A model generated the notes under the pieces. That model was not told the origin of the DNA. It did not search any database and worked only from the letters and a program-made list of their open reading frames with translations. The position numbers and the translations under genes were made by a program. A DNA stretch of 20,584 nucleotides from a virus, in the IMG/VR virus record IMGVR_UViG_3300023172_000253, positions 1-20,584 of that record; one strand, 5' to 3'. Positions 1-4,408 of this stretch are shown here, piece after piece. Every line of letters starts with the position of its first letter. The stretch's first letter is position 1.

Positions 1-1423
1 GATTTTTTGTACCTGTAAAAAATGATATTACACTTGCACCAAGATCTGCAATTGCGTTTAATCCTTTACCACCTGCAAAAGCTGCAAGGCCAGCACCTAA
101 ACTTGCAAGAGCAGTCATTGCAGTTTCTATTTGAACTGGATCTGCTTCTTGTCCAATAGTTAATAAGGTTTCAACTTCTCTTTTAATATCTTCTGCAAAA
201 TTATCACCTGCTGTAAACATTGTTAATGCATCAGCTGCACCAGCTGCGCCTTTCGCGGTTGAAAATGCTAATAATCCAGCAGTAATACCGCCCATAGTAC
301 CAATAAATGCTGCAGTATCCCAACCAAGGTTTGGTAAAGATCCTATTGAAAGTAATGATTCAACTTCAGCTTTAATATCTGCACCAAAATTATCGCCGGC
401 GCTAAATTTTCCAACTGCATCTGCAACTCCAGCCGCGCCTTTACCTACTGCAAATGCTGCAAGTCCAACTCCTAATCCTGTAAGAGTAGCAACTAAACCA
501 GCAGTATCCCAAAAACCAAGTTGATCTATAGATAAAAGAGTTTCTACATTATTTTTTATTTTTGTAGCCCAATCTTCTCCACTACTAAATTTTGCTACAG
601 CTTCACCAATTCCTCCAGCAGCTGAGCCAAATCCAAATGCAGCTAAACCAATACCTATACCACCAAGTGCTAGTGCTAAAGCTCCTCCTTCAGCAAGCAT
701 TGCTCCAGCTCCACCAACTTCATCATTTATTGCAATTAAACTAAGAACATTTTCCTTAATTCTATCAGTCCAACCTTCTTCTAAAAATTTATCTACTACC
801 CCAGCAACTCCAGCTCCGATACCGAATGCTGCTAAACCAATTCCAATTCCACCTAGTGCAAGTGCTAGTGTTCCACCATCAACTAATAAATTACCACCAG
901 CTTCTTCAACGTCTTTATTAATACCAACTAATTTTTGTACATTTTCTGATATTTTATCAACATTCATATTCTCAAAGGTTTCAATAAGTTTAGGTGCGGT
1001 ATAAAATACAGCTGCAAGTCCTATACCTAATCCAGCTCCTGCTATTCCAACTCCAGATAGTAGACCACCTAGTTTACCAGCTATACCACCTTTACTTTCA
1101 GCAGCAACTGTTTGATTTGCAGTTTCTTTTGGCAGTTTACGTAATTCATCACGTATTTCTTCAAAGATAGTCATTCTTTCCATTTGATCTTCTTGACCCT
1201 GTAACTTATTAGAGTCAATCATATCTTGGAAGTTTTCAAAACCATAAACGGTACGTGCTTGAAAGTCATTCATAACTTTCTGCATGTTTTTCATTTCTAA
1301 TAAATGTCTTCGAGTATTTTGACCATCATTAGCAATTTTATTGGTAGACTTATTATTAGCCTCCATTAATGCTATTAGATCAGATATACCTTTTCCGCCT
1401 AATGGTTTTTTATCTTCTGCCAT
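1..1423 (-). CDS. Probable tail tape-measure-like structural protein, repetitive and hydrophobic (C-terminus outside window)
   Basis: The frame is open from ATG at 1423-1421 to the window edge, giving 474 codons with no stop, so the 3' end is missing. Residues 1-110 are polar and mostly helical. From about residue 115 the protein becomes Gly/Ala-rich and hydrophobic, with a repeated unit. The motif GLAAF or a close variant (GLAAV, GLLAF) recurs at residues 135, 196, 260, 320, 383 and 445, a period of 60-64. Each copy is followed by a segment like DKFxxGDxxAxxIKxxVExLLSI. The gene follows the two-helix membrane protein by 4 bases; a GGA 11 bases upstream is the only weak ribosome site. Tail tape measures usually lie just downstream of the tail chaperone frameshift pair, and long hydrophobic helical repeats are typical of them, so this is the best guess. 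T4's own tape measure, gp29, is not recognisably similar by eye. A membrane-active ejection protein is the alternative. Confidence 0.6.
   Translation of the reverse strand, partial: MAEDKKPLGGKGISDLIALMEANNKSTNKIANDGQNTRRHLLEMKNMQKVMNDFQARTVYGFENFQDMIDSNKLQGQEDQMERMTIFEEIRDELRKLPKETANQTVAAESKGGIAGKLGGLLSGVGIAGAGLGIGLAAVFYTAPKLIETFENMNVDKISENVQKLVGINKDVEEAGGNLLVDGGTLALALGGIGIGLAAFGIGAGVAGVVDKFLEEGWTDRIKENVLSLIAINDEVGGAGAMLAEGGALALALGGIGIGLAAFGFGSAAGGIGEAVAKFSSGEDWATKIKNNVETLLSIDQLGFWDTAGLVATLTGLGVGLAAFAVGKGAAGVADAVGKFSAGDNFGADIKAEVESLLSIGSLPNLGWDTAAFIGTMGGITAGLLAFSTAKGAAGAADALTMFTAGDNFAEDIKREVETLLTIGQEADPVQIETAMTALASLGAGLAAFAGGKGLNAIADLGASVISFFTGTKN
115..1081 (-). repeat. Six degenerate ~62-residue repeats in the tape-measure-like gene
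   Basis: The repeats are seen at protein level, with GLAAF-type cores at residues 135, 196, 260, 320, 383 and 445 (spacings 61, 64, 60, 63, 62). A typical unit has a Gly/Ala-rich hydrophobic helix, then a Asp/Lys-Phe turn, a Gly-Asp or Gly-Glu, and an amphipathic helix ending in a leucine-rich LLSI-like stretch. The DNA copies have diverged, so this is an old internal duplication rather than a recent tandem repeat. Coordinates cover the part where the repeat is clear; the last copy continues toward the left edge. Confidence 0.65.
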
Positions 1424-1427
1424 TTAA

Positions 1428-1805
1428 TTATTTTCCGCCAAATGCTCTTCCAGCTTCACTAATACCAAATGCACCTAATGTAACCACTACAAAAGATGTA
1501 TAAATTGTATCAGAGATAACTAAATCTTTTCCCATAAATGCAGTGATTAGATCGCATATACCAAAAATTGTCATTAATGCAAATGATATAAATCCAATTA
1601 TTGCCTTTTCATTTACATCATTATCATCTAAAAAGATGTCCATGAATTTTCTTTCTGGTGGAGCAAGTCTTTTCTTTGCTTCTGCAGCTTCAAGTTGCAT
1701 TTCCTTAATAGTATCTTCAGCCTTATCAAGCTTATCAATAAGACCCATATACTTATCTAAATCTATTTCAACTTCGTTACGACTATTGTCTTGTCCTTCA
1801 GCCAT
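1428..1805 (-). CDS. Small membrane protein: coiled coil plus two transmembrane helices
   Basis: This 125-residue protein is not recognised by name. Residues 13-48 are charged and heptad-like, probably a coiled coil. Residues 67-90 and about 101-116 are hydrophobic and look like two membrane helices, separated by a short loop MGKDLVISDT; the C-terminus is short and basic. The start is firm: an AGGAG Shine-Dalgarno lies just upstream, and the ATG overlaps the TAA of the gp51-like frame as TAATG. It sits between the tail chaperone region and the tape-measure-like gene. The layout (soluble amphipathic N-terminus, two close helices, few charges at the end) could fit a holin or a small tail protein acting at the membrane during DNA entry. 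Both roles are inference; no lysis enzyme is visible in the window to support a holin. Confidence 0.8.
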   Translation of the reverse strand: MAEGQDNSRNEVEIDLDKYMGLIDKLDKAEDTIKEMQLEAAEAKKRLAPPERKFMDIFLDDNDVNEKAIIGFISFALMTIFGICDLITAFMGKDLVISDTIYTSFVVVTLGAFGISEAGRAFGGK

Positions 1806-1999
1806 TATCTTCTCCTTCTATTCATACTTTGTATGCGTTCGTTTTCTGTTTTAATATGTTCCTGTAGTAGAGCTAAGTATATCTCCCTCTCCCACGGCAT
1901 CATATTTTCAATCTCAGTAAGACTATACTTATGATGTTGCATTAAAGCAAAATTAGTCTGATAAAAATTAGTCAAACTATCATGCGAGAGGCCTATGAA
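1805..1999 (-). CDS. gp51-like C-terminal extension in the -1 frame of gp26 (programmed frameshift product)
   Basis: A continuous frame of 64 codons with no start at its beginning. It opens at the T-run at the 3' end of gp26 and ends in TAA overlapping the next ATG. Slipping one base back on the two TTT codons joins gp26 residues 1-236 to this frame and gives a 300-residue fusion. The sequence is protein-like: an N-terminal part, then MQHHKYSLTEIENMMPWERE and a following helix, ending in four arginines. The motif of a Tyr/Ser-Leu-Thr-Glu segment, Met-Pro-Trp-Glu-Arg and a Tyr resembles the C-terminal domain of tail assembly chaperone 'GT' proteins. In T4 the neighbour of gene 26 is gene 51, a hub assembly factor. 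An internal ATG at 1942-1940 could instead give a 45-residue stand-alone protein, but it has no clear Shine-Dalgarno. Confidence 0.65.
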   Translation of the reverse strand, partial: FIGLSHDSLTNFYQTNFALMQHHKYSLTEIENMMPWEREIYLALLQEHIKTENERIQSMNRRRR

Positions 2000-2706
2000 A
2001 AAAAACTTTGTAATCCTTTTAATTCAAGTTTATTTTTCTTAGAACACTTAACACATTCATAATCTGATTCATAATGTAAGGCAGGAACACTTAAAAAGAA
2101 CTGTTGTATTTTTTTAAATTGTTCACTGCTTAATGAATCAATAAAAGCTTGTACTTCTTCTGCTGATTCATTCTTCACATCATATACGTTATCATTATCA
2201 AATATTGTATCAATACATTTTGTAATTAAATCCATAACACCATCAATCGAATTTAACCTTTCTGGATCTAAAGATCCAATCATTTCCATTGATGGGTATT
2301 TCATTTGAACTCCTACTCCTGTAGATTCGTCCAATGTAATCACTCTATCAAGATTTTTATTAATAATATTAACATCATTAATATCAATTACAATTGGTGT
2401 AACACCAGTGCATTCTTCATCTTGACATTTTGCTTGTAGATTCATTTTTTCACCTACAGATTTACCACGTAAATGTAAGAACAAATATTCTATATCAAAT
2501 ACTGTAAGCTCTTCTAGGCTTTGTAGATCATAGCAAGATAATATTATATTTCTTACTGCTTGTGAAATCTGAACTACATCATTAGATTCTAAAGCAATCA
2601 TTAGTACCTTTTCTTCTTTTACAAGATAAGGTCTCATATTAATAAGTTCTCCAGTACTAGGTAATTCTACCTGATATTGAGGAACATTCAGTTTGGGTAA
2701 TCCCAT
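1993..2706 (-). CDS. gp26: gp26-like baseplate hub / tail assembly chaperone subunit
   Basis: This 237-residue protein matches the marine T4-like gp26 family (Pfam 'T4 bacteriophage base plate protein', by memory). Its N-terminus begins MGLPKLNVPQYQVELPSTGE, a layout I associate with that family. It is mostly alpha-helical, with Leu/Ile-rich central helices and a Glu/Ser-rich segment before the C-terminal helix. Two Cys pairs, C94/C99 and C218/C221 (CVKC), could form one zinc site. T4 gp26 is a hub component of about 208 residues; the extra length here is modest. The start is supported by a GGAG site. It lies 12 bases after the tube-like gene and ends in a slippery T-run leading into the gp51-like frame. 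By analogy with G-type tail chaperones it may coat the tape measure during tube assembly; that is inference. Confidence 0.82.
   Translation of the reverse strand: MGLPKLNVPQYQVELPSTGELINMRPYLVKEEKVLMIALESNDVVQISQAVRNIILSCYDLQSLEELTVFDIEYLFLHLRGKSVGEKMNLQAKCQDEECTGVTPIVIDINDVNIINKNLDRVITLDESTGVGVQMKYPSMEMIGSLDPERLNSIDGVMDLITKCIDTIFDNDNVYDVKNESAEEVQAFIDSLSSEQFKKIQQFFLSVPALHYESDYECVKCSKKNKLELKGLQSFFS
1998..2005 (-). promoter_or_regulatory. Candidate -1 ribosomal frameshift site (T8 run) in gp26
   Basis: On the coding strand gp26 ends AGT TTT TTT TCA TAG. The run of eight T lets two tRNA-Phe re-pair perfectly after a one-base backward slip, so translation continues TTC ATA GGC into the gp51-like frame instead of stopping at TAG two codons later. 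The shape (slippery heptamer a few codons before the stop, followed by a short chaperone-like domain) matches the G/GT tail chaperone frameshift of many tailed phages. Confidence 0.6.
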
Positions 2707-2718
2707 TTTTTTCTCCTA

Positions 2719-3357
2719 TTATGTTATCAAATCAAGGGCACTTGAAATAGCACTTGCAGTACTACTCAATGGACCTTCTGGTATAAAGTTATCATAACTT
2801 AAAGTCACAGTTAATTCTTGAACAGTATTTTCACTACTGTTATCAAGTTCTATAGCAGTTACGGTTGTTGGAAATGCATTTTGCAATTTAACACCATACA
2901 CTGGTACATTTTTATCATTCACCTGTTGTATAATTACATCAGTTGAAAAATCCTTTTTATATCCTATTTGATAATTGGCCATATCAATAACAGATGATTC
3001 CCAGTTATCAAATAGAACTTTTATATAATAATCGTTTGTAAGTAAAAATTTTAATTGCACATCTTCATTTATTGCGGTATATGGTATTGGCACCTGTTGT
3101 TTATGTGCTTGGTAATCTATTGTAGTAATTTGTCTTCCTGGAATTTGAGCGCTTTGACATAATAGCGATATGTCTCTTGGGTCATTAATTAAGTTACGTG
3201 CACTAAAAGTTCCAGAAAGTAATGATCCTACTAATACTTCTGGATTTAAATTTAATAATGATTGTGTAGGTGGTGTAAAGATTATATTAAATCTATTTGC
3301 TTTGGCCAATCCACCTTTCTTAGATATTAATGATTTTAAATTATCAATATTGCTCAT
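2719..3357 (-). CDS. gp19-superfamily tail tube / baseplate tube-initiator protein (gp54-like)
   Basis: This 212-residue protein has the signature of the T4 gp19 tail-tube superfamily. An N-terminal strand NRFNIIF is followed by CQSAQIPGRQI near residue 70, then a core with ED(V)QLKFLLTNDYYIK, a Phe-Asp-x-Trp segment, and strands ending in NAFPTTV and TVTLSYDNF. The major tube protein gp19 normally lies with gp18 near the portal genes. Here the gene is beside gp26 and across from gp48, so it is more likely the tube initiator at the baseplate (gp54 role) than the major tube subunit. Its ATG overlaps the stop of the gene before it as TAATG, suggesting translational coupling. The exact paralogue (gp19, gp54) cannot be decided by eye. 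Confidence 0.75.
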   Translation of the reverse strand: MSNIDNLKSLISKKGGLAKANRFNIIFTPPTQSLLNLNPEVLVGSLLSGTFSARNLINDPRDISLLCQSAQIPGRQITTIDYQAHKQQVPIPYTAINEDVQLKFLLTNDYYIKVLFDNWESSVIDMANYQIGYKKDFSTDVIIQQVNDKNVPVYGVKLQNAFPTTVTAIELDNSSENTVQELTVTLSYDNFIPEGPLSSTASAISSALDLIT

Positions 3358-3967: not shown

Positions 3968-4408
3968 TTATAGTACTTTGATGCCGAGATTCTTTAAAGT
4001 TTCTTCAGTCCATACTTGAAATTTCCATCCATTATGTTCAGCAAACTTATTGGCAGCTTCCCATTTATCATTGTTTTTGATATAGGTTAACTGTTCATTG
4101 ATAAACTTTTTAGTCTTACGCGACCTAGGTTTAGGTGGTTGTGTTTCTTTTTTAGGTTTAATTTCTATGAGATACGTCTTTTTATTATCCATTTGAATTA
4201 ATAAATCAACATAATATCTATGAAGTTTTTTATCAATAGATGATACATAGGGCACTACGACCTCTTCTGAATTCCAGAGTTTTACTTTTGGATTATTTTC
4301 ACACCATCGAAACGTATTGCGTTCCCATAAAGAACGATATATTACTTTTTTAACGTCACCAGCATACTTATCTGGATTTTTAATTGTATATCTACCTTTG
4401 TAACTCAT
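3968..4408 (-). CDS. gp4: gp4-like head completion protein with TnsA/PD-(D/E)xK nuclease fold
   Basis: This 146-residue protein fits T4 gp4 (head completion) in length and in its motif pattern. Residues 24-36, YRSLWERNTFRWC, are the family's N-terminal signature. It also carries residues expected of a PD-(D/E)xK endonuclease: E29, D68 (in YYVDLL) and E82-x-K84 (in LIEIKPKK). TnsA-like nucleases have this same spacing, and the family is classed near the TnsA N-terminal domain. A basic stretch at residues 84-101 could bind DNA. In T4, gp4 is needed to finish filled heads so that tails can attach; whether it cuts DNA is not settled. It is the first gene of the minus-strand block, with its own late promoter and a TAGG site about 8 bases before the ATG. 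Confidence 0.85.
   Translation of the reverse strand: MSYKGRYTIKNPDKYAGDVKKVIYRSLWERNTFRWCENNPKVKLWNSEEVVVPYVSSIDKKLHRYYVDLLIQMDNKKTYLIEIKPKKETQPPKPRSRKTKKFINEQLTYIKNNDKWEAANKFAEHNGWKFQVWTEETLKNLGIKVL

Follow-up and report, generated by a model that had tools for sequence, protein, structure and literature searches.

Whether the gp26 protein of this marine T4-like phage is made only in its short form, or also as a longer chain ending in a gp51-like domain, is the question raised by two overlapping reading frames on the minus strand of the window (the whole stretch of 20,584 nucleotides analyzed here, from IMG/VR record IMGVR_UViG_3300023172_000253). The gp26 reading frame (1993..2706, minus strand) encodes 237 amino acids and matches PF12322 (E value 3.7e-58) and phrog_150 (E value 4.2e-63); it is read here as a gpG-like tail assembly chaperone (TAC) of the short type, TAC-N. 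Its 3' end reads CAA AGT TTT TTT TCA TAG. The first-pass annotation had pointed to the eight T residues in this ending, and they are found on the minus strand at 2005-1998. The T8 run (1998-2005) contains the heptamer T_TTT_TTT (1999..2005, minus strand), which is in frame and has the X_XXY_YYZ form that characterizes programmed -1 frameshift sites. The same T8 run is present in two other metagenome contigs (L003 and L004), the gp26 of which is 100% identical, and this makes a sequencing error less likely.

The -1 frame is open from a point 5' of the T8 run and comprises 64 codons followed by a TAA at 1807-1805 (1805..1999, minus strand), the last base of which is shared with the next ATG (TAATG), exactly as first described. 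A -1 slip on T_TTT_TTT would yield a chain of 300 amino acids (236 + 64), a TAC of the long type or TAC-NC, with the sequence S-F-F-F-I-G-L...ENMMPWEREIY. Searched by itself, the -1 frame hits PHROG 634, 'baseplate hub assembly catalyst' (E value 1.2e-27), as well as the terminal part of the baseplate hub profile PHROG 150. The PHROG 634 match indicates that the frame is not open by chance, and the suggestion that it encodes a gp51-like domain with an MPWER motif is borne out. Positions are given below in RNA coordinates, where 0 is the first base of the gp26 stop codon. From 10 nt before this stop to +52, the -1 frame of the window has neither ATG nor GTG, and its sole start candidate is a TTG at +20, in keeping with the earlier remark that the extension has no suitable start.

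The neighboring genes are also on the minus strand. Upstream of gp26 is a tail-tube-family protein related to gp19/gp54 (2719..3357; phrog_45, E value 4.2e-35; PF06841, E value 7e-7). Downstream, a 125-aa protein (1428..1805), the start of which overlaps the gp51 stop, has hydrophobic segments when inspected by eye and no confident family in Pfam or PHROGs profile searches; a small ORF is found at the same position in phiN3 and Rhizobium I1_9. The large ORF that follows (2..1423) runs off the edge of the window and is likely the tape-measure protein, as judged from its position and from weak profile matches, i.e., phrog_2836 tape measure (E value 0.0065) for the window protein and phrog_3547 tape measure (E value 2.2e-5) for the S-SM2 protein at the equivalent position. 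The order is thus tube family, gp26/gp51, small protein and likely tape measure, which places gp26/gp51 between tube and tape-measure genes as is characteristic of a TAC, the identity of the tape measure being the soft part of this assignment. Elsewhere in the window, a head-closure gp4-like protein (3968-4408, minus strand) matches the TnsA-like endonuclease N-terminal domain PF08722 (E value 1.1e-18).

Conservation of the heptamer and the open frame

Relatives were collected from IMG/VR and from named phages, and removal of duplicates left 223 distinct junctions. With the Tevenvirinae and Ackermannviridae set aside, every distinct junction (201/201) combines an open -1 frame with a T_TTT_TTN heptamer shortly before the gp26 stop, and in 197 of these the heptamer lies at exactly -10. 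A frameshift site near the 3' end followed by an open extension, as expected of a TAC gene, is therefore conserved in these junctions, and the check proposed at the outset, namely whether the T run and the -1 frame persist in relatives, has held. The run is only six T long in 103 of the 201. Phages that carry the site include cyanophages and phages of Vibrio, Aeromonas, Cronobacter, Stenotrophomonas, Rhizobium, Desulfovibrio, Methylophilales and Pseudoalteromonas. In the two main clades (105 representatives), the codon 5' of the heptamer always ends in T (Ser AGT or TCT, Gly, Asp, Asn). The gp26 of Vibrio phage nt-1 (L087, 2150-2998) is longer than that of the window (282 versus 237 aa) and has an acidic insertion.

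The Tevenvirinae served as a control. Their gp26 mostly retains the Phe-Phe pair, encoded by TTC TTT, and the heptamer is absent from all 11 sequences. In the Ackermannviridae, the -1 frame after gp26 is open, gp51-like and conserved, yet the heptamer is missing, an exception that counts against the frameshift model. The junction in this family (Det7, Menlow and relatives; L088, L332-L346, L358) reads GAG ATT TTC ATT TAA or, in some members, GAA ATT TTC ATT TAA.

The extension is conserved at the protein level in a region that precedes any start codon. In the clade of the window, the -1 frame of 13 of 30 representatives is free of ATG, GTG and TTG up to +53. Among the 201 junctions, 67 lack all three through +49 and 28 through +52, and in Desulfovibrio phage 7757 the -1 frame is entirely without a start codon. 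Between +2 and +53, diversity at the third position of -1 codons is 0.358, as compared with 0.099 and 0.079 at positions 1 and 2, a difference of about fourfold. By this measure, the -1 frame is under purifying selection.

Sequence and structure flanking the heptamer

Programmed -1 sites may be accompanied by an upstream Shine-Dalgarno (SD)-like stimulator. In the window, the SD-like motif AAAGGA (2014..2019, minus strand) lies about 9 nt 5' of the heptamer, and a motif of this kind is found 8-9 nt 5' of the heptamer in nearly all junctions. In the cyanophages, the Glu-Gly codons at the motif are either GAG-GGN or GAA-GGG, with GAA occurring only before GGG (16/16; hypergeometric probability 2.4e-12, with relatedness not corrected for). 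When placed on the protein tree, this double synonymous switch corresponds to about nine parallel gains and three reversals. Both the fixed spacing and the compensating synonymous codons speak for an upstream stimulator.

A structure is also predicted close to the 3' side of the heptamer. In the clade of the window, positions +3..+14 pair with +99..+110 to form a stem of 10-12 bp that begins 6-7 nt 3' of the heptamer and has a structured loop of about 85 nt between its arms. The 5' arm in the window is GCCTCTC-G-CATG (1981..1992, minus strand) and the 3' arm, located inside the MPWER codons, is CGTG-G-GAGAGGG (1885..1896, minus strand). The RNA of the window has a minimum free energy of -36.2 kcal/mol (z -4.23; 0 of 200 shuffles), and the arms of the stem have a mean energy of -17.7 kcal/mol versus -3.4 kcal/mol for control segments. 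All ten core pairs are kept in 59 of 76 representatives. Counting against the stem, parts of it are disrupted in some clade-2 sequences (GAACGT variants). At +7/+106, C-G and U-A interchange by means of synonymous codons for Leu and Glu, and in the 76 representatives no column shares more mutual information with +7 than does +106. A first covariation set of 30 sequences had given a single compensatory pair, weak by itself, and the covariation became convincing once the second clade was added. An RNAalifold analysis that ended at +90 did not detect the stem, since the 3' arm lies further downstream. Strong stem arms are also found in the isolates Melnitz-3, P-HM2, nt-1 and VH1_2019.

Cyanophages of the S-SM2 type have instead a local hairpin of five pairs, each of which shows changes on both sides (43 double-change cells versus 12.1 in shuffles; 0 of 500). 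A close downstream structure, another attribute of programmed -1 sites, is thus indicated by the z value of the stem and by covariation in both the stem and the cyanophage hairpin. Based on their position and conservation, the SD-like motif, the stem and the hairpin probably stimulate slippage.

Probable translation of the extension by frameshifting

Taken together, we consider it very probable, on the evidence of comparative sequence analysis, that the locus contains a strongly conserved programmed -1 frameshift site that makes a TAC-N/TAC-NC pair of the G/GT type. The first-pass annotation had proposed such a pair, of 237 and 300 residues, and its proposal is supported by the conservation of the site, by gp51 homology across the junction (see below) and by the position of the gene. 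We infer the occurrence of frameshifting, its efficiency and the protein contacts as follows. Most ribosomes would stop at the gp26 TAG and release the short form of 237 aa. In a minority, TTT-TTT would slip back by one base on T_TTT_TTT, and the product would be the 300-aa form with the gp51 domain. Slippage would probably be promoted both by the internal SD-like motif 9 nt upstream and by the stem of 10-12 bp that starts 6-7 nt downstream. If the proteins act as in lambda, the short form may coat the tape-measure protein and the gp51 tail may recruit tube subunits.

An improbable alternative is that gp51 is a separate short gene, translated by reinitiation or from an internal start once gp26 has terminated, the candidate starts being the TTG at +20 in the window and an ATG at +5 or +14 in cyanophages. 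Most S-SM2-type cyanophages do have such an in-frame ATG, from which a separate gp51 could begin, and GenBank often annotates one there. However, the 13 startless representatives of the window clade have a conserved peptide upstream of +53, the frame of Desulfovibrio phage 7757 offers no start at all, and the single-chain gp51 of the Tevenvirinae aligns across the junction. Moreover, a separate gene would leave the invariant heptamer, the SD-like motif and the downstream structure without explanation, and some annotated starts cut the domain. In P-HM2, for example, gp51 is annotated as 30 aa only, from +90. The Melnitz-3 annotation is likewise truncated, from about +54, and gp51 is not annotated in the records of S-CAM1, Cronobacter LPCS28, Aeromonas Asswx_1 and Menlow (L360 and L347 for P-HM2 and Melnitz-3; L357, L352, L354 and L358 for the others).

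Slippage of RNA polymerase on the T8 run, so that mRNAs of mixed length encode both products, has a still lower probability in our estimate. The window does have eight T residues, and long T or A runs are known sites of such slippage, but a run of only six T in about half of the distinct relatives (103/201) speaks against it, and what is conserved, i.e., an in-frame heptamer with an SD-like motif and downstream structures, fits slippage of the ribosome. Least probable of all, to the point of being negligible, is that the two frames reflect an indel error in what is really one in-frame gene, or that gp51 is the relic of a decayed gene. While homopolymer runs attract indel errors, the arrangement recurs in cultured isolates as well as in numerous independent assemblies, the T8 run is identical in the two other contigs noted above, and the -1 frame is under purifying selection; an origin by error or decay is contradicted by this conservation.

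Relation to T4 and to other chaperone systems

In T4, gp26 and gp51 are both full-length members of PF12322 (E values 8.8e-64 and 3.9e-52, respectively), and gp51 has approximately 48 additional C-terminal residues. The fusion predicted for the window is colinear across the slip junction with gp51 from JD18 (E value 1.35e-12) and from T4 (E value 3e-7), and in a multiple alignment of gp26 and T4-type gp51 proteins, the gp51 tail begins where gp26 ends. By family membership, then, the short form is homologous to gp26 and the fusion to gp51. One T4-type gp51 locus (L177) was left out, since its Klebsiella-type gp51 ORF (2001-2746) is interrupted by an apparent one-base indel relative to JD18. 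Because both T4 proteins are full-length members of the family and gp51 is colinear with the fusion, T4 encodes the short and the long form as two paralogous genes, which are divergently transcribed. The two had been taken initially as separate hub genes; separate they are, but not merely so, being full-length paralogues that form a short/long pair. These comparisons suggest that an ancestral frameshift was lost in T4 via duplication, so that between T4 and its relatives recoding was exchanged for gene duplication. We lean, with some reserve, toward a broader reading in which one slip site in one family has clade-specific stimulators, each kept up by synonymous covariation, in addition to a shared SD-like motif, while in the T4 lineage the signal is gone and its role has passed to two paralogous genes. 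Within this reading, the long-range stem, with its 3' arm in the PWER codons, applies to the clade of the window and some isolates, and the local hairpin to the S-SM2-type cyanophages.

The AlphaFold2 model of gp26 has a pLDDT of 87.9. When compared with PDB chains, residues 5-93 align to 3fgx (Z 7.9) and residues 1-84 to the HK97 TAC, 2ob9 (Z 7.1); these are followed by 5ir0 (Z 5.0), after which the next match drops to Z 2.7. The Z values for the TAC fold are below 8 and below the level at which the tool advises caution, and were weighed as supportive only. Foldseek found no match of the gp26 model in the PDB at E<=0.001, the TAC structures surfacing only upon realignment, and a sequence search of the PDB returned no solved relative. 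For the T4-type gp51 model, VIA-align against the PDB gave no TAC among its matches, which counts against the TAC fold without refuting it. Among predicted viral structures the model matches T4-type gp26 proteins. It is possible, based on these models, that the N-terminal ~85 residues of gp26 resemble the HK97 tail assembly chaperone.

A 2016 review described G-T frameshifting as widespread 'except T4' (PMC5009743). According to two later papers (PMC10885494, PMC12846349), TAC genes of T4-like phages, which in T4 are 26 and 51, were identified by Vladimirov, Gautam and Davidson (Virology 2022;566:9-15), a study known to us through these citing papers only. The citing papers also report that in some T4-like phages a short gene and a longer, fused gene take the place of frameshifting (PMC10885494), and that TAC-N genes in T4-like phages are known to contain poly-T -1 signals (PMC12846349). 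The proposed tie between T4-type hub assembly and the general tail chaperone is, as far as these citing papers convey the 2022 study, correct but not new. A search of the literature other than the 2022 study itself found no earlier direct report of this slip site under the gene names and no description of the stimulators. The core idea has already been published in outline, and the apparent novelty lies in the conserved RNA signals that flank the slip site.

The slip site explains why gp51 is missing, truncated or 'hypothetical' in many genomes of T4-like marine phages. It also favors the view that the hub chaperones gp26 and gp51 are what the general G/GT tail chaperone looks like in T4. With the conserved stimulators, a collection of natural signals is at hand on which the tuning of the ratio of short to long form by phages can be measured.

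Among known systems, the TAC locus of the Vandenendeviridae and Andersonviridae, with a conserved GTTTTT, likewise has a poly-T site near the 3' end of TAC-N and an extension that is routinely annotated as a separate hypothetical gene; these are other phage families, and stimulatory structures are not mentioned in the passages of that report consulted (PMC12846349). The locus would share with lambda gpG/gpGT and the wider TAC family a short product and a rarer -1 extended product, a site a few codons before the stop, a position between the tube and likely tape-measure genes, and possibly an N-terminal fold resembling HK97 TAC 2ob9. It differs from lambda in its family (PF12322), in the T_TTT_TTN slip site, in an extra C-terminal domain of the short form, and in its conserved, clade-specific downstream RNA structures. 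The T4 proteins belong to the same family, with gp26 as the counterpart of the short form and gp51, over its whole length, as that of the long form. T4 and the other Tevenvirinae differ in that the long form has a paralogous gene of its own, which is divergently transcribed, and in that gp26 is without the heptamer. The dnaX-type -1 signals of bacteria consist of a heptamer, an upstream SD-like stimulator and a downstream RNA structure, the same elements as are found here. The dnaX shift shortens the product, whereas the shift proposed here would extend it, and the stem of the window clade is long-range, with arms about 85 nt apart.
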